From a virus: a DNA stretch of 58,688 nucleotides. The position numbers were made by a program, and so were the translations under genes. Location of the stretch: IMG/VR virus record IMGVR_UViG_3300020125_000336, positions 1-58,688 of that record, one strand, 5' to 3'. Under the pieces are notes generated by a model that saw nothing but the letters and a program-made list of their open reading frames with translations, had not been told where the DNA came from and searched no databases. Every line of letters starts with the position of its first letter. Position 1 is the stretch's first letter. Below, in pieces: positions 1,375 to 58,688 of the stretch.

Positions 1375-1414
1375 AAAAAACAAATCCCCGAGCGTTTTAC
1401 TGCTCAGGGATTTT
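1375..1414 (-). terminator. intrinsic terminator
   Basis: On the minus strand the stem AAATCCC-T-GAGC pairs with GCTC-G-GGGATTT (one U-G wobble, 12 pairs) around an 8-base loop and is followed by G and six Ts (1380-1375). It sits 5 bases downstream of the cloverleaf element, where it would end the transcript of the 6066-1553 operon or of a separate small RNA. Confidence 0.75.
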
Positions 1415-1552: not shown

Positions 1553-1765
1553 TTAACTTTCTTCAACAGCCTCCGCCTGACAGGCCGGACACAGCTTGGG
1601 TTTGCAGTCGGGGCAGAACCATTTTTCCTTGCGGTAAATCCATCCCTGCTTGATGGCCAGCATCTCAGAATTGCGCTCGGCAGCCGTTACGGTAGGGGAC
1701 AGCGCACCGCAAACCACTTGGTTGCGGCACAAGTCGCACATGATGTTGCATTCGTAACTGATCAT
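1553..1765 (-). CDS. zinc-ribbon protein
   Basis: 70 residues. Metal-ligand pairs CDLC near residue 10, CPDC near 51 and CPAC near 59 fit one or two zinc-binding knuckles. Start at 1765 overlaps the stop of the 31-residue membrane peptide as ATGA. Last protein gene before the structured spacer and terminator. Possibly a nucleic-acid or protein-binding adaptor; no family name can be given. Confidence 0.7.
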   Translation of the reverse strand: MISYECNIMCDLCRNQVVCGALSPTVTAAERNSEMLAIKQGWIYRKEKWFCPDCKPKLCPACQAEAVEES

Positions 1766-1857
1766 AAAAGCAGCCAGATAAACAGGGCCAGGGCACCCAA
1801 CGCCAGGAGGGCGTCACAGATGGTGATGGTTCGGTCCATCTTCTTTGTGTCAGGCAT
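1762..1857 (-). CDS. 31-residue membrane microprotein
   Basis: An ATG at 1857 opens a 31-codon frame: a charged N-terminus (MPDTKKMDR) then one hydrophobic helix (ALLALGALALFIWLLL) reaching the C-terminus. The stop overlaps the next ATG (ATGA), and it starts 2 bases after the stop of another membrane microprotein, so the reading frames tile without gaps. Predicted single-span inner-membrane peptide with its N-terminus in the cytoplasm. Function unknown. Confidence 0.65.
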   Translation of the reverse strand: MPDTKKMDRTITICDALLALGALALFIWLLL

Positions 1858-1859
1858 CT

Positions 1860-1952
1860 TCAAAGGCCAATCTTTCTCCAAAGCCAGTGTACCAGTTCGC
1901 AGCATAGCCAGCCGATAAAGAACGAAATCAGGGCTATTTCTTGTGCGCTCAC
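1860..1952 (-). CDS. 30-residue membrane microprotein, CCELV family, copy 1
   Basis: A GTG at 1952 overlaps the stop of the upstream gene (GTGA) and opens a 30-codon frame with one hydrophobic helix followed by CCELVHWLWRKIGL. A peptide of identical length with the same CCELVxWLWRxxGL ending lies at 57176-57268. The two share 17 of 30 residues, while codons for the shared core differ at third positions, which argues that both are translated and selected. Probably an inner-membrane peptide with an amphipathic Trp-rich tail. No known family recognised. Confidence 0.75.
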   Translation of the reverse strand: MSAQEIALISFFIGWLCCELVHWLWRKIGL

Positions 1953-2203
1953 GGTCTGGTCCTCGACGTGCCGTCCTCTCGTCCCACCCGGGACACGTCC
2001 TCGATCAGGATGAAGGAGTCCCCGCAAAAGTAGCTGATTCTGCCCATTCGGTTGGCCTTGACGTTGGTTACCTTCCCTGCCCGGGGCTCAATGTCAGTCC
2101 AATTGCGCCACGAGATGGGGTCGCCGACATGGAAATAGCAGTGCTTCCAATGCCAGACCCCATCGGTGGGCGGATTGACCTTTTCAGGAATCGTCACGCT
2201 CAT
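1949..2203 (-). CDS. hypothetical protein
   Basis: 84 residues with a beta-rich, aromatic pattern (WHWKHCYFHVGDPISW, then GKVTNVKANRMGRISYF) that could be a small barrel; no family recognised. Start ATG at 2203 overlaps the preceding stop (ATGA); the stop overlaps the GTG start of the microprotein gene. Confidence 0.65.
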   Translation of the reverse strand: MSVTIPEKVNPPTDGVWHWKHCYFHVGDPISWRNWTDIEPRAGKVTNVKANRMGRISYFCGDSFILIEDVSRVGREDGTSRTRP

Positions 2204-2534: not shown

Positions 2535-2696
2535 CTAAAGTGGGTTGACTCGATAAAGCCGAGCATTTTTATTTGTTTTGGTGCAGAAACTCTTAAACCA
2601 CAACGCCTTAGAGTTGCGCTTGTAGAGCCGCTTGCACTTGTTGCAGCGGTAAAGCCGCGCCGGGATGTTGTCCGGGCTTGTCACATTTTTCCTCAT
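2535..2696 (-). CDS. 53-residue zinc-knuckle protein
   Basis: ATG at 2696 overlaps the stop of the 417-residue gene (ATGA). The product is very basic with LYRCNKCKRLYKRNS and a third Cys near residue 38 (FKSFC), a partial zinc ribbon. It probably binds nucleic acid. It lies between the likely annealing protein and the SCPIAR copy. Confidence 0.7.
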   Translation of the reverse strand: MRKNVTSPDNIPARLYRCNKCKRLYKRNSKALWFKSFCTKTNKNARLYRVNPL

Positions 2697-3946
2697 AACG
2701 CGTCTCCTTTGCTCTTCAGCATGTCAGCCAGGAGATCCAGGGCCTTGCGAAACTCCAGATCTGCTTTGCTGGGCATGCGGGTTTGGCCCTGGCGATCAAC
2801 CCAGCTTTTAGCCTCGAAATGAGCGATAAAGCCCCATAACCGCTGCCGGTCTGCCGCGCTCTGCTCGTCTGTCCCATGCCGGTTGGCGAAGAGGCTCCCA
2901 ATGGTGTCGGGGTTCTTCAGGTAGTCATCCCGCTTCATCCCCTTGCGGGGAATCGGCACAATGCATGTGAAAGGCCACTGCGTAAGGTCGTAGTCGCCTT
3001 CAGTCTGTGGAACATTTTGTTCCACGGGAGGATCTGTCACTGGCGGTGGTGGCGCATGGATTATCGGCTTTTCTGGCACTTTGCCCCCAATGGCGAAGTG
3101 CGTGATGTCAGAAATCAGCTTGGTCATCTCAACTCTGTTGATCGGAACAAACCTAAGTGGCACATCATCAATGGTTTCCGTTGGAAGTATGGCCCCAATT
3201 TCGATGAAATACTGCAAAGCCTCTTGCATGCAGGGCTCCAAATTCTGCGCCATCCAGGCCCGAGTTGCGTCTGTCGCTATGGTAGGTTTCGCTGGGATGG
3301 GCCTGGGAGCGACTTTCGGAGCGATTGGCTGTCTCGATGGGGCCTGGGGCCTTGGGATGGCTCCTGGGGGCTTTTCCGGCGTTCCTGGCATTTCCTCTGC
3401 CGGGGTTGGTTCATACCCTGCCAACGTCATCACGAAGCCCAAGGGCATCCGTAGGGCCTTGGCCGTGGCCCGGGTCTGGGCCATGCTCCGAACGGCGTAG
3501 GCGTCCCGGTCCTGCCAATTTTTCTCAATCTTGAGACATTCAGCCTCGGCGGCTCCCACAATGGCCCCGTCCCTGGTCCGGGCCTCGACTCTGGCCTCCC
3601 AGCCTCCCGGGATCTCCCGGGTCCAGACCAAAACCGGGAAGACTCCCAGCATGGTCCCCAGCAGGGTCCAGGCTTCACAGCGTGGATACTCACGGCCCTG
3701 GATGTTGCTGATCAGGCCCTGAGTCTTGATCACGGCCTTGAGCGCCGTAGCGACTTGGGTCGCCTTCTCAATCACCTCCACCGGCCCAACGGCACCGAAC
3801 AGTCCCACGGGCATGATCCTGACACGTTGACCTTCGGGCACCAGGGCTTGCGGTAGTAGCTGCGCCTCTCCTGCCACGTCCCCGGAATCGTCCAGCGGCT
3901 CAAGATCGGGGTCAGGATCGAAGTTTTGGTGTTCGTGCTCGCTCAT
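2693..3946 (-). CDS. putative single-strand annealing / recombination protein
   Basis: 417 residues. The N-terminal third (about 60-190) contains a conserved-looking core: an Ile-Gln-Gly start, RCEAWTLLGTMLGVFPVL, an EARVEART strand and RSMAQTRATAKALRM. Such phage proteins resemble Rad52/ERF-type annealing proteins in that last Ala/Arg helix. A Pro-rich linker (about 195-240) precedes a second region to the C-terminus. The GGAGGAGAG ribosome site sits inside the 21-codon frame upstream. The nearby VRR-NUC and Cas4-like nucleases make a recombination role plausible, but the assignment is inference. Confidence 0.55.
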   Translation of the reverse strand: MSEHEHQNFDPDPDLEPLDDSGDVAGEAQLLPQALVPEGQRVRIMPVGLFGAVGPVEVIEKATQVATALKAVIKTQGLISNIQGREYPRCEAWTLLGTMLGVFPVLVWTREIPGGWEARVEARTRDGAIVGAAEAECLKIEKNWQDRDAYAVRSMAQTRATAKALRMPLGFVMTLAGYEPTPAEEMPGTPEKPPGAIPRPQAPSRQPIAPKVAPRPIPAKPTIATDATRAWMAQNLEPCMQEALQYFIEIGAILPTETIDDVPLRFVPINRVEMTKLISDITHFAIGGKVPEKPIIHAPPPPVTDPPVEQNVPQTEGDYDLTQWPFTCIVPIPRKGMKRDDYLKNPDTIGSLFANRHGTDEQSAADRQRLWGFIAHFEAKSWVDRQGQTRMPSKADLEFRKALDLLADMLKSKGDAL

Positions 3947-8933: not shown

Positions 8934-9303
8934 TCACAAGCTCTGGCGCGAAGGCAAAGGCCCCCAGGGGACCAAGCAGCCCGAAACCAAGGGTTGGCCC
9001 GAGGATAAATGGCCAGAGGGTTGGCCGGAAGCCGGGAGCACCGAGACGCCCGGGTATCTCACCTGGGAGGGGGAGCCCTACACGTTTAAACCGCTGTCGG
9101 GCGGCTACTGCGCCGTAAAGTGCTGCTCCTGGCAGAACTCCCGGCTGGAACGGGAATACCGGAACGAGATACACAACCGCAAGAAGCTCCTGGGGTCGCT
9201 CCGATGGGGTCGGCTCCGCGCCCTGGTCATTGGATGGGCGATAGCCAAGGGGCAAGACCCGGACGATGCGAAGCGGTTTGCCACGCATATCCAATACCAT
9301 TAA
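8917..9303 (+). CDS. hypothetical protein
   Basis: 128 residues. The first 45 are Trp/Pro/Gly-rich and low in complexity (WPEDKWPEGWPEAG); the rest is a compact helical domain with GGYCAVKCC near residue 62. Last gene before the structured RNA element at 9311-9421. No family recognised. Confidence 0.65.
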   Translation: MQNETDHKLWREGKGPQGTKQPETKGWPEDKWPEGWPEAGSTETPGYLTWEGEPYTFKPLSGGYCAVKCCSWQNSRLEREYRNEIHNRKKLLGSLRWGRLRALVIGWAIAKGQDPDDAKRFATHIQYH

Positions 9304-9310
9304 AGCTCAT

Positions 9311-9421
9311 GGTGATGGCTAATGCTGAGTCGCTTTCAGCTGCGGGGGTAAGCCAGCGTTGGCGCACCCAAAAGGGTTAATCCCCCACTGGTGCTGAAGG
9401 CTGAGAACTTTAGCCATCACC
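9311..9421 (+). ncRNA. candidate structured RNA with nested stems
   Basis: A perfect 12-bp stem (GGTGATGGCTAA 9311-9322 with 9410-9421) encloses a 9-bp stem with one G-U pair (9332-9340 with 9393-9401), then GGGGG/CCCCC (9344-9348 with 9382-9386) and two small hairpins near 9352-9363 and 9366-9377. The wobble supports the plus strand. It starts 7 bases after a stop codon and is followed by a modest U-rich tract, so it could be an elaborate terminator or a separate small RNA. Confidence 0.6.
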
Positions 9422-9457
9422 TTTGTTTGCTATACATAGAACCTCTTTTGACATACA

Positions 9458-9475
9458 TTGACAAGGAATAGACAA
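9458..9475 (+). promoter_or_regulatory. TTGACAAGG-ATAGAC element, copy 1
   Basis: An 18-base element identical at 16 positions to 10673-10690. It includes a perfect -35-like TTGACA and lies 34 bases before the GTG at 9510. A matching -10 is not evident, so it may be an operator or phage-specific promoter part. Confidence 0.45.
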
Positions 9476-9509
9476 CAGGCCGAAAGGCCACAACCAAAAG
9501 GAAAACACA

Positions 9510-10710: not shown

Positions 10711-11058
10711 ATGCAGCACTTACAAATCAGTGAACACGAGACCGAGATCACCGAGTTGGCGATCCAGACGGTCCTACATCAGCAGAGCATCAACGAACAG
10801 CGCAAGGGGACGGAGTTTTATCGGAAGCCCTATGATCTGGCGTTGCATATTGTTATGGCCCTCAAAGCGAGGGGTTTTAGAATCAGCGTCAGCCCGTTTG
10901 AGACGGGGACGGAGCGAGAGGTATTGTCCAGCATCCGCAAGAGTTTGCCGCTTGAGAGCAGGGACAGCGAGCATCTACAGGGGATGCATTTAGGCAAGCT
11001 GGGGATACGAACCAAGCAGGACGCCTTGCCCAAGGGTCTGCGAAGGAGGGCAGAATAA
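10711..11058 (+). CDS. hypothetical protein
   Basis: 115 residues, acidic helices first, then a strand-turn region (ARGFRISVSPFETGTER) and a basic tail. Start codon lies 8 bases after a -10-like TAAAAA. TAATG overlap with the next gene. No family recognised. Confidence 0.62.
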   Translation: MQHLQISEHETEITELAIQTVLHQQSINEQRKGTEFYRKPYDLALHIVMALKARGFRISVSPFETGTEREVLSSIRKSLPLESRDSEHLQGMHLGKLGIRTKQDALPKGLRRRAE

Positions 11059-14577: not shown

Positions 14578-14902
14578 AACTGATACTTTACACAATTATG
14601 AAAAGGAGGCAAGCATTATTTTTAAGTTTTGGAGGCCCAGCTGTGGGACGGGCTTTACCGCCAGCGGCTGAACCGCAGTTAAATGCCTCCAAAACTCACC
14701 CGCAGCCGGTTCCCCGTCCACATGCCTTTCGGGCTGACTCAACGAGGATTACGGACTGCGGGTGCCCAGGACCAAACCACCCAACAAAACCCTCATGCCA
14801 GCGATGACACACCGTGAGGGCGGCGGTGACGAAATAAGGCCCGTGGAAACAGTGAACCCAAAACCCCGTGCCATGTCGCGCTCGACTGGCTTACGCTAAA
14901 TG
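14578..14902. other. 325-base gene-free leader region with stems
   Basis: On the minus strand this lies between the gene ending at 14903 and the start at 14577. No gene is seen; the plus frame at 14598 is not convincing. It contains the structured element 14625-14820. Confidence 0.7.
14625..14820 (+). ncRNA. candidate structured RNA, three stems
   Basis: Perfect 12-bp stem AGTTTTGGAGGC (14625-14636) with 14685-14696; inside it AGCTGTGG (14639-14646) pairs with CCGCAGTT (14673-14680), two wobbles favouring the plus strand. Directly adjacent is a perfect 9-bp stem CACCCGCAG (14697-14705) with 14756-14764, then CCCTCA/TGAGGG (14790-14795 with 14815-14820). Could be a regulatory leader or a small RNA. 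Confidence 0.5.
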
Positions 14903-56751: not shown

Positions 56752-56980
56752 ACACATGATGTATGCGCTGGGCCAGATGGTTATGGCCGACGCCGCCATC
56801 ACGCCGGGATGTATCCCCAACATTGCCACAGCTGAATTACACACTTCAACGTTCCACCTTTTGGCGGCTATCGCTGAAATCAATAATCCGCAAATCAATG
56901 AGCCAGGAAACATCCAACAAACTGCACCAAATATTCATTGTCCTGATCCCGTCGATTCCGGCGTTACTGGCGTGGGTTAG
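56738..56980 (+). CDS. hypothetical protein
   Basis: 80 residues from TTG at 56738, chosen because AAGGAGG lies 4 bases upstream and the stop of the preceding gene follows just inside; ATG at 56756 is the alternative. ALGQMVMADAAITPGCIPNI near 10. Overlaps the next gene out of frame by 83 bases. No family recognised. Confidence 0.55.
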   Translation: MSPLEHMMYALGQMVMADAAITPGCIPNIATAELHTSTFHLLAAIAEINNPQINEPGNIQQTAPNIHCPDPVDSGVTGVG

Positions 56981-57140
56981 CTCTTTATCCAACAAAAAGA
57001 AGCTCCACGAGATCCACATGCAGTTTAACTCTCGCTTTGACGAGATGATCCAGGCGGTGAAAACCACTGCTCACGCCGCTGGTAAAAAAGAGCAGCAGGA
57101 AGAAGATCGAGCGCGACAATCCCCTGGTCACGGTTTGTAA
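56898..57140 (+). CDS. small membrane-anchored coiled-coil protein
   Basis: 80 residues. One membrane segment (IFIVLIPSIPALLAWVSSL) after a short N-terminus, then a charged helix (KKLHEIHMQFNSRFDEMIQ) and a Lys/Glu-rich tail. Inner-spanin-like topology, though other roles are possible. Last gene of the rightward late operon. Confidence 0.62.
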   Translation: MSQETSNKLHQIFIVLIPSIPALLAWVSSLSNKKKLHEIHMQFNSRFDEMIQAVKTTAHAAGKKEQQEEDRARQSPGHGL

Positions 57141-57175: not shown

Positions 57176-57268
57176 TCATAGCCCCAGACTCCGCCACAGC
57201 CAGCGCACCAGCTCACAGCAGGCGTAACCCATGGCAAAGGCGATAAGTACTACTAGCTGATCGTGCAT
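57176..57268 (-). CDS. 30-residue membrane microprotein, CCELV family, copy 2
   Basis: ATG at 57268 opens a 30-codon frame ending GYACCELVRWLWRSLGL. It aligns along its full length with the microprotein at 1860-1952 (17 of 30 identical). In the ten-codon core from the first Cys to WLWR the codons differ synonymously at Cys, Glu, Val, Leu and Arg. It follows the VRR-NUC gene by 34 bases, across a small GC-rich hairpin, at the end of the leftward early operon. Confidence 0.75.
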   Translation of the reverse strand: MHDQLVVLIAFAMGYACCELVRWLWRSLGL

Positions 57269-57277
57269 AAAATGTAA

Positions 57278-57291
57278 CCCCGGAGCCGGGG
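57278..57291. terminator. weak GC hairpin between convergent units
   Basis: CCCCGG-AG-CCGGGG hairpin between the VRR-NUC stop and the microprotein start. No strong U-run follows on either strand. Possibly an attenuator for the microprotein or part of the converging-operon boundary. Confidence 0.35.
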
Positions 57292-57302
57292 CGCTTCGGT
57301 TT

Positions 57303-57677
57303 TCATGGTTTGCCAATAATGTGCATGAATTGCTCTTTGCTCCGCACCTCCACAATCTCGTGGCCCAACTTATGGGCCCAGGCCCTTAGAATCTGCTGCG
57401 CCTTGGTCAGCTTGCCGGTCTTGGACTTTGCTTCGATGATGAAAACTCTGCCCCGGCTCCCCAGGATGATGAAGTCCGGTGAGCCCACTTCCAGGGTGCT
57501 GGGCCGGTCCATCCGGGCGTGAATCGTGATCCAGCCCCGGTGACGGCATTCAGCCATGATGGCATCGTGCAGGTCTCTCTCCTTCTCCACGCAGACGTAG
57601 CTGGCCGGGATGGGTTTGGTCTGTTTTGCCAGACGGGCCAGGGCTGACATGTATTCCGCATTGGTCCAGGCGCTCAT
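57303..57677 (-). CDS. VRR-NUC domain nuclease
   Basis: 124 residues from ATG at 57677, set by ATGA overlap with the upstream stop. EKERDLHDAIMAECRHRGW near 31, MDRPSTLEVGSPDFIIL near 56, VFIIEAKSKTGKLTKAQQ near 78: the G-D...E-x-K...Q order of VRR-NUC (PD-(D/E)XK) nucleases, with likely ligands D68, E82 and K84. May resolve branched DNA or act in recombination together with the Cas4-like nuclease. Confidence 0.9.
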   Translation of the reverse strand: MSAWTNAEYMSALARLAKQTKPIPASYVCVEKERDLHDAIMAECRHRGWITIHARMDRPSTLEVGSPDFIILGSRGRVFIIEAKSKTGKLTKAQQILRAWAHKLGHEIVEVRSKEQFMHIIGKP

Positions 57678-57970
57678 TTCTTTGGCTCTAGCTCCAGCAC
57701 TGCTCGGCACATGATGACCGTGGGCTCGGTTTCATCCTCCCAGGTTGGCCACAATGCCTTGAGCAATTCAAGCCCAGCCGCATTGTGCCGCACAAATCCT
57801 TTCTTAATCGCCTCACTGATGGGTGCAACCAAGGCCACCCCGGCAGGATAGTTCCAGGCGATCATGGCCACGGTCTCCGGGTTCTCCTTGCGCCACTTCT
57901 CGGCGTTCTCCCACATGGTCTGCAATTGGGCTACGTATTTTTTTTCCTGTTCTTTGTCTTTGAAATTCAT
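57674..57970 (-). CDS. hypothetical protein
   Basis: 98 residues, charged helices then IAWNYPAGVALVAPISEAIKK (in part) and PTVIMCRAVLELEPK at the end. A good AAGGAGGAAA site precedes the ATG. Lies between two nucleases; the upstream nuclease frame runs 158 bases into it. No family recognised. Confidence 0.65.
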   Translation of the reverse strand: MNFKDKEQEKKYVAQLQTMWENAEKWRKENPETVAMIAWNYPAGVALVAPISEAIKKGFVRHNAAGLELLKALWPTWEDETEPTVIMCRAVLELEPKK

Positions 57971-58688
57971 TTTCCTCCTTCAGCTTTTGGAATTGTTCGC
58001 ACCATTGAGAAACAAGGCAGTACGACTCGCATCTGGTGTTGACCCCGGGCCGATGCACCACGTAGTGCCCTGCGCCGGTATCAGCTGCCGCTCTTGCCTC
58101 TTTCGAGGTATCCATCAGCAATACTGCTCTTTTGCGTCCAGGGGCCATTACAGCCCACTTGTCCGGTTTGGCCCATCTTTCCAGCGGGGAGCACTCAGGA
58201 AGGGTCGTCCTGGCCATCATGTGCAGCGTGAGCCGTTCGCAGACAAAGCCATTTTGCTCCTCCGCTGACCACAACTTCACCGGGAACACCTGCACTTGCA
58301 TTTGTGGGTAGTCTCGATTCCGCCGCGCCTCAGCTACGCTCCAATCTCTGTAGATGGCCACAATCTGCGCAGCCTTAATGTTCATGCCGTTCTCCCGCGC
58401 CAGGAACGCAAGGCAGTTAACCTGTTGCTCGTGCTCTGGTTTCACGCCGTGAACAGCTGCCCACAAAGAAGTCACTTTGTAGTCAACTATTTGTTCTTCG
58501 TGCATGAGATCCACTTGGCCTGAAATGGTTTTGCCCATAACCTCTGCTCTTAACCGCTTCTCAGAAAATCCTTTGGTCACTGAACGCTCCAGTATCAGGT
58601 GTCCGATTTGGCCCAACAGCGAAAATATCCGGTCTGCGGCATCTTCAACCATTTCATGGGCGTGTTGGTGTTTGAGTGCCACAATCCG
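57813..58688 (-). CDS. Cas4/RecB-like exonuclease with Cys cluster, main part
   Basis: 289 codons are seen here; with the part beyond the join (1-244) about 330 residues. RecB motifs in full-length numbering: H/E in GHLILERS near 68-73, GQVDLM with D99, VDYKVTS with D108 and K110, and Q128 in HEQQVN. Cys205 (PECSPLERW) with Cys259, Cys263 and Cys269 (RCESYCLVSQWC) match the four-Cys iron-sulfur site of Cas4/AddB-type nucleases. Likely processes DNA ends for recombination or replication. The last 50 residues overlap the next gene in another frame and are probably not conserved. Confidence 0.88.
   Translation of the reverse strand, partial: RIVALKHQHAHEMVEDAADRIFSLLGQIGHLILERSVTKGFSEKRLRAEVMGKTISGQVDLMHEEQIVDYKVTSLWAAVHGVKPEHEQQVNCLAFLARENGMNIKAAQIVAIYRDWSVAEARRNRDYPQMQVQVFPVKLWSAEEQNGFVCERLTLHMMARTTLPECSPLERWAKPDKWAVMAPGRKRAVLLMDTSKEARAAADTGAGHYVVHRPGVNTRCESYCLVSQWCEQFQKLKEENEFQRQRTGKKIRSPIADHVGERREVAQGEPGDRGHDRLELSCRGGLGCTHQ
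58562..58688. repeat. 127-base terminal overlap, right copy
   Basis: Identical to bases 1-127; see the left copy. Removing one copy gives a circular molecule of about 58,561 bp. Confidence 0.9.

Follow-up and report, generated by a model that had tools for sequence, protein, structure and literature searches.

A diverged pair of 30-residue microproteins, probably membrane-spanning, in the recombination gene cluster of a phage

Annotation normally misses genes as short as 30 codons. Micro-genes of the kind described here, encoding peptides A and B, are common in phages, and the two peptides fit into the broad class of phage small proteins reviewed in PMC11323111. Like the single-TM microproteins of phage early regions, they are tiny, phage-encoded and subject to fast turnover between relatives. 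They differ from other phage microproteins in that two diverged paralogues, with the motif CCELVxWLWRxxGL in common, are kept in one genome. In descriptive terms both are phage single-TM microproteins, being encoded by a phage, shorter than 50 residues, built around one hydrophobic helix and located in a phage operon.

Among type I toxins, DinQ of E. coli is a 27-residue peptide that forms an inner-membrane helix (PMC3567139). A and B resemble it in having one helix whose second half contains Glu and Arg, and A shares its GTG start. Unlike DinQ, they are operonic and translationally coupled, and their sequence similarity to it is weak for B (score 28, p 0.011) and not significant for A (p 0.44), so that homology to DinQ is not supported for A. 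As in type I toxins, each peptide is short (30 aa) and is predicted, from modelling and hydropathy, to form a hydrophobic helix. A search of the opposite strand near A and B for promoters of the sigma-70-like type, from which an antisense antitoxin might be made, found none. We compare the two genes below with each other, with their surroundings in the window (the whole 58,688-nucleotide stretch of DNA analyzed) and with related phages.

Sequence conservation of the two peptides

The original prediction had described two 30-residue ORFs at the positions given in Table 1, and both are present there on the minus strand. Read from its GTG start, A translates as VSAQEIALISFFIGWLCCELVHWLWRKIGL. The alignment with B is gapless, and the claimed identity of 17 in 30 residues holds when the GTG is taken as Met (16 of 29 if the start is left out). 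The pair has a Smith-Waterman score of 102, compared to a mean of 21.7 and a maximum of 58 in 20,000 joint shuffles; about 7e-5 pairs with such a score are expected by chance among the 236,328 pairs of small ORFs (20-60 aa) in the whole genome. When trivial copies within the end repeats are set aside, A and B form the top small-ORF pair, and the runner-up scores 53.

Differences between the two genes number 8, 9 and 21 at codon positions 1, 2 and 3, respectively. Synonymous divergence is saturated (pS 0.86), compared to a pN of 0.30 overall and 0.14 for the C-terminal half. Neutral simulation at the same nucleotide distance retained about 8 residues on average, and the observed 16 were reached in 0 of 20,000 simulations; neutral drift is thus rejected by both the codon positions and the simulations. 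Codons differ synonymously at C18, E19, V21, L24, R26, G29 and L30 and are the same at C17, L20, W23 and W25. The earlier statement that the Cys, Glu, Val, Leu and Arg codons of the core all differ was therefore slightly overstated: it is correct for C18, E19, V21, L24 and R26, but the codons of C17 and L20 are identical. The flanking sequences, 120 nt on each side, show no relatedness between the copies, which argues, with the substitution pattern and the pair score, that the protein and not the DNA has been conserved, as originally proposed. Reading frames are open upstream of both starts, and the residues encoded there are dissimilar between the copies, so the similarity begins at the proposed start codons.

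A and B are real coding genes and paralogues under purifying selection, which is strongest in the C-terminal half; the conservation evidence for the family comes from these two sequences. The duplication is ancient and the copies have diverged. An internal paralogue pair of this sort is direct evidence, independent of expression data, that a tiny ORF of a phage is a real gene under selection, and it shows which residues are important, here those of the shared motif.

AlphaFold2 predicts one helix (residues 3-28, mean pLDDT 91). Hydropathy over 15 residues peaks at approximately 2.0-2.1, with the maximum in the first two thirds of the peptide. By these predictions A and B very probably span the membrane. 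Pair score, selection and predicted helix together support the original picture of a single-helix microprotein, probably membrane-spanning, that is present twice. Charge placement, read by the positive-inside rule, would put the N-terminus in the periplasm and the C-terminus in the cytoplasm. Conserved positions are not significantly gathered on one face of the helix (p 0.35).

Gene neighbourhood and translation starts

The end repeat marks the record as circular, and A and B thus lie not at opposite ends but within one leftward gene cluster, on the same strand and separated by about 3.15 kb (Table 1). They are a local paralogous pair within that cluster. The junction of the 127-bp ends appears to lie within the exonuclease gene. 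In leftward order, the A block comprises the genes for the 417-aa protein, a 100-aa protein, the 84-aa protein, A, TM2 and the 70-aa Cys-rich protein, followed by a gap with a terminator-like hairpin. Past the gap are genes for another 100-aa protein, an HNH endonuclease, the exonuclease, a 98-aa protein and the VRR_NUC nuclease, and then B. The hairpin and the gene-poor gap suggest that A and B may be on different transcripts. Both copies had been assigned to a single leftward early operon; the same-strand leftward cluster is as described, but hairpin and gap separate it into two gene blocks, and it is the neighbouring recombination genes that suggest early expression.

Table 1. Coordinates of the features discussed, in the window unless another record is named
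Feature	Position	Strand	Remarks
Peptide A, 30 aa, MSAQEIALISFFIGWLCCELVHWLWRKIGL	1860..1952	-	GTG start; single predicted helix, residues 3-28
Peptide B, 30 aa, MHDQLVVLIAFAMGYACCELVRWLWRSLGL	57176..57268	-	ATG start; diverged paralogue of A; final gene in the leftward cluster
Identical 127-bp ends	1-127 and 58562-58688		consistent with circular assembly
417-aa protein, phrog_19042, function unknown	2693..3946	-	conserved cluster anchor; adjoins exonuclease gene in relatives
84-aa protein, function unknown	1949..2203	-	4-nt overlap of its stop with A's GTG
TM2, 31-aa single-TM microprotein, MPDTKKMDRTITICDALLALGALALFIWLLL	1762..1857	-	begins 2 nt past A's stop
70-aa Cys-rich small protein	1553..1765	-	coupled to TM2 gene; weak relative in phage L044
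Terminator-like hairpin and T run	1382..1413	-	between A block and B block
Exonuclease-like protein, phrog_2139	57813..58682	-	conserved anchor; frame crosses the record's artificial ends
VRR_NUC nuclease gene	57303..57710	-	directly upstream of B
GC-rich hairpin, GCCCCGGCTCCGGGGT	57277..57292	-	between nuclease stop and B's ATG
First peptide of L035, 31 aa, MIHQVFVLLIVFFLGFDACAGFVMLMRRRGR	10810-10905 (L035)		follows 417-aa anchor by ATGA overlap

The start of A is preceded by GAGG at a distance of about 8 nt and shares a GTGA overlap with the gene upstream, and this translational coupling binds A to the upstream operon. Relatives of the overlapping 84-aa protein were looked for and none were found. 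On the other side, the TM2 gene has an ATGA overlap with the gene for the 70-aa protein; TM2 itself shows no similarity to A or B. No clear ribosome-binding site is seen in the start region of B. A 17-codon ORF overlaps the nuclease stop by ATGA, runs through the GC hairpin and ends 14 nt inside B, and B could therefore be translated by re-initiation. Approximately 36 nt separate the stop codon of B from where the convergent rightward late region ends.

Most of the large proteins tested from positions 16023-38517 of the window, including one of 2169 aa, lack a clear match in Pfam or PHROGs, and a 696-aa protein from the same region has no match in phage records. The mostly unmatched large proteins indicate that this uncultivated phage is very divergent.

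Homologue searches and microproteins of related phages

We found no confirmed homologue of A or B in viral contigs, 84,980 prokaryote species genomes, phage records, Pfam, PHROGs, NCBIfam or PADLOC, nor, with B as the query, in plasmids or the PDB. This agrees with the earlier remark that no such family was known, queries of 30 residues being hard to search. Phage relatives were gathered in two ways, 24 loci through the 417-aa protein and 46 through the exonuclease. A pair profile of A and B recovered both in the window's own record, its performance being shown for these known copies, and gave no confirmed homologue in the approximately 70 related phage records. Further homologues had been named as a check on the pair; none were confirmed, and the paralogue evidence stands regardless. 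On the evidence of these searches, A and B are an orphan pair of phage microproteins.

All weak matches from these searches were examined and rejected. The L003 match is in the wrong frame inside larger ORFs, that in L018 (an Actinobacteria MAG) is another frame of a 128-aa ORF, that in L008 sits within a larger gene, and that in L084 contains in-frame stop codons, with no ORF present. The match in L023 is to A alone and falls in the C-terminal tail of a 137-aa protein; B matches nothing there. Six contigs bear a relaxed form of the motif, and none has a matching small hydrophobic ORF. A tblastn match in a tail gene of an E. coli phage (E = 7) is due to chance.

Other coupled single-helix microproteins are encoded close to the anchor genes in many relatives. 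Phage L035 has two coupled TM microproteins in tandem, directly after its 417-aa homologue. The first of these, of 31 residues, aligns with A at a score of 37 and with B at 43 (shuffle p approximately 0.0007 each), but it came out of a scan of 6,557 ORFs, after which the similarity is not significant, so the peptide remains a candidate only. It agrees with A and B at nine residues (M1, L8, I9, F11, G14, C18, L24, R26 and G29) and, like A, is coupled and has a second coupled TM microprotein after it; unlike A and B, it lacks CCELV and the WLW core. It is thus a possible, unproven distant relative. Adding it to the profile brought in no additional member, the strong match in its own record arising by construction. 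L044, the closest relative by its exonuclease (53%), has an unrelated 59-aa membrane protein at the position of B. From the arrangement of these genes in relatives, coupled single-helix microproteins seem to be a trait of the recombination cluster that recurs and changes quickly. Such microproteins follow the 417-aa homologue in L035 (10810-11357) and in L040 and L041 (10858-11766), with clear conservation of MNILLGTLILALLLSMIAAMWVDVTEACHEAFL.../MNLAIGLLILALLVSMLVAMWVDVTDACHEAFL... and MSRQFDWLLAGAWAAV... between L035 and L040/L041.

Possible functions and nearby structured RNAs

A toxin, a superinfection-exclusion peptide and a host-membrane modulator had been proposed as functions of the pair, and from context we prefer the last. 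The most likely role, to which we give about an even chance, is that A and B modulate a membrane protein early in infection. They would be paralogous single-pass inner-membrane microproteins made alongside the recombination (early-type) gene cluster, with an Arg/Trp-rich C-terminus on the cytoplasmic side and the N-terminus toward the periplasm. The motif CCELVxWLWRxxGL would place the small residues G14, C17 and C18, a membrane-buried Glu19 and interfacial Trp23, Trp25 and Arg26 within the half of the bilayer that faces the cytoplasm. Each peptide might then act as a regulatory helix that binds a host or phage membrane protein via helix contacts, and this binding would alter a membrane-dependent activity early in infection. 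Since the ancient duplication, A is coupled to the upstream operon and B sits separately behind a hairpin at the cluster end, a placement that could provide two doses or timings. Membrane insertion, topology, partner binding, timing and effect are in each case what we infer for A and B. In favour of a modulator we count the pair similarity, the selection, the unrelated flanks, the GTGA/ATGA overlaps, the helix and its hydropathy, as well as the coupled microproteins in relatives, the L035 tandem and the 59-aa membrane protein of L044. Counted against it are the non-significant helix face, which gives no direct sign of a packing surface, the start region of B, and the failure of approximately 70 related records to yield a confirmed homologue.

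The alternatives differ in how well they fit the same observations. Membrane-depolarising peptides such as DinQ, TisB and Lpt oligomerise in the inner membrane, collapse its potential and halt the host; A and B match them in size and architecture (a single helix, about 27-30 aa), the GTG start recurs in A, DinQ likewise has a Glu-Arg polar patch in the latter half of the helix (PMC3567139), and B has its weak DinQ score. A toxin of this type is nevertheless unlikely, because A, a true paralogue of B, is not similar to DinQ, neither peptide matches a toxin family in Pfam, PHROGs or NCBIfam, the structured RNA at 1370-1530 pairs with the A and B mRNAs no better than shuffles do, and A is within a coupled operon whereas type I toxins stand alone. 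The nearness of B to the convergent late genes could instead point to a lysis helper or regulator, akin to a small holin, pinholin or antiholin, the more so as the last frame of the late region (56898-57140, 80 aa) has a hydrophobic segment and L044 retains a membrane protein at the convergent position. Both copies, however, are on the early-type strand opposite the late genes, on which B merely converges; A is 3 kb away within the recombination cluster, outside the late lysis cassette; and A, B and the 80-aa frame match no holin family, all of which makes a lysis function quite improbable.

Superinfection exclusion, in which the peptides would act at the inner membrane to keep the DNA of related phages from entering, is a little-favoured reading and seems very unlikely. 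Such functions are typically served by small membrane proteins encoded in early-type positions, and two diverged copies could broaden the range blocked, but there is no similarity to any known family. That the pair consists of chance ORFs, or reflects conserved DNA and not protein, is extremely improbable: the ORFs are very short, lack homologues and in the case of B lack a clear ribosome-binding site, yet pair score, codon-position bias and neutral simulation all disfavour it. A different proposal, which we regard as quite doubtful, is that A, B and the L035 peptide belong to one ancient, fast-diverging family of tandem, translationally coupled membrane microproteins of the 417-aa-protein/exonuclease recombination module in uncultivated phages, serving that module and not acting as stand-alone toxins. 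If so, they might, for example, tether phage recombination or replication to the membrane.

The gene-poor gap after A's operon contains, on the minus strand at 1370-1530, an extremely stable structured RNA (MFE -87.2 kcal/mol in 161 nt, z -10.5) with the terminator-like hairpin at its end. It has no match in Rfam and no sequence relative among the related loci collected. A very stable structured RNA also follows early-type genes in the related phage L010 (12040-12260, plus strand; MFE -91.7, z -5.7), and its alignment with the RNA of the window is not convincing. Long hairpin-rich stretches are found in the window at 9280-9480 on the minus strand and at 14580-14800 on the plus strand (z -3.2 and -3.8, respectively).
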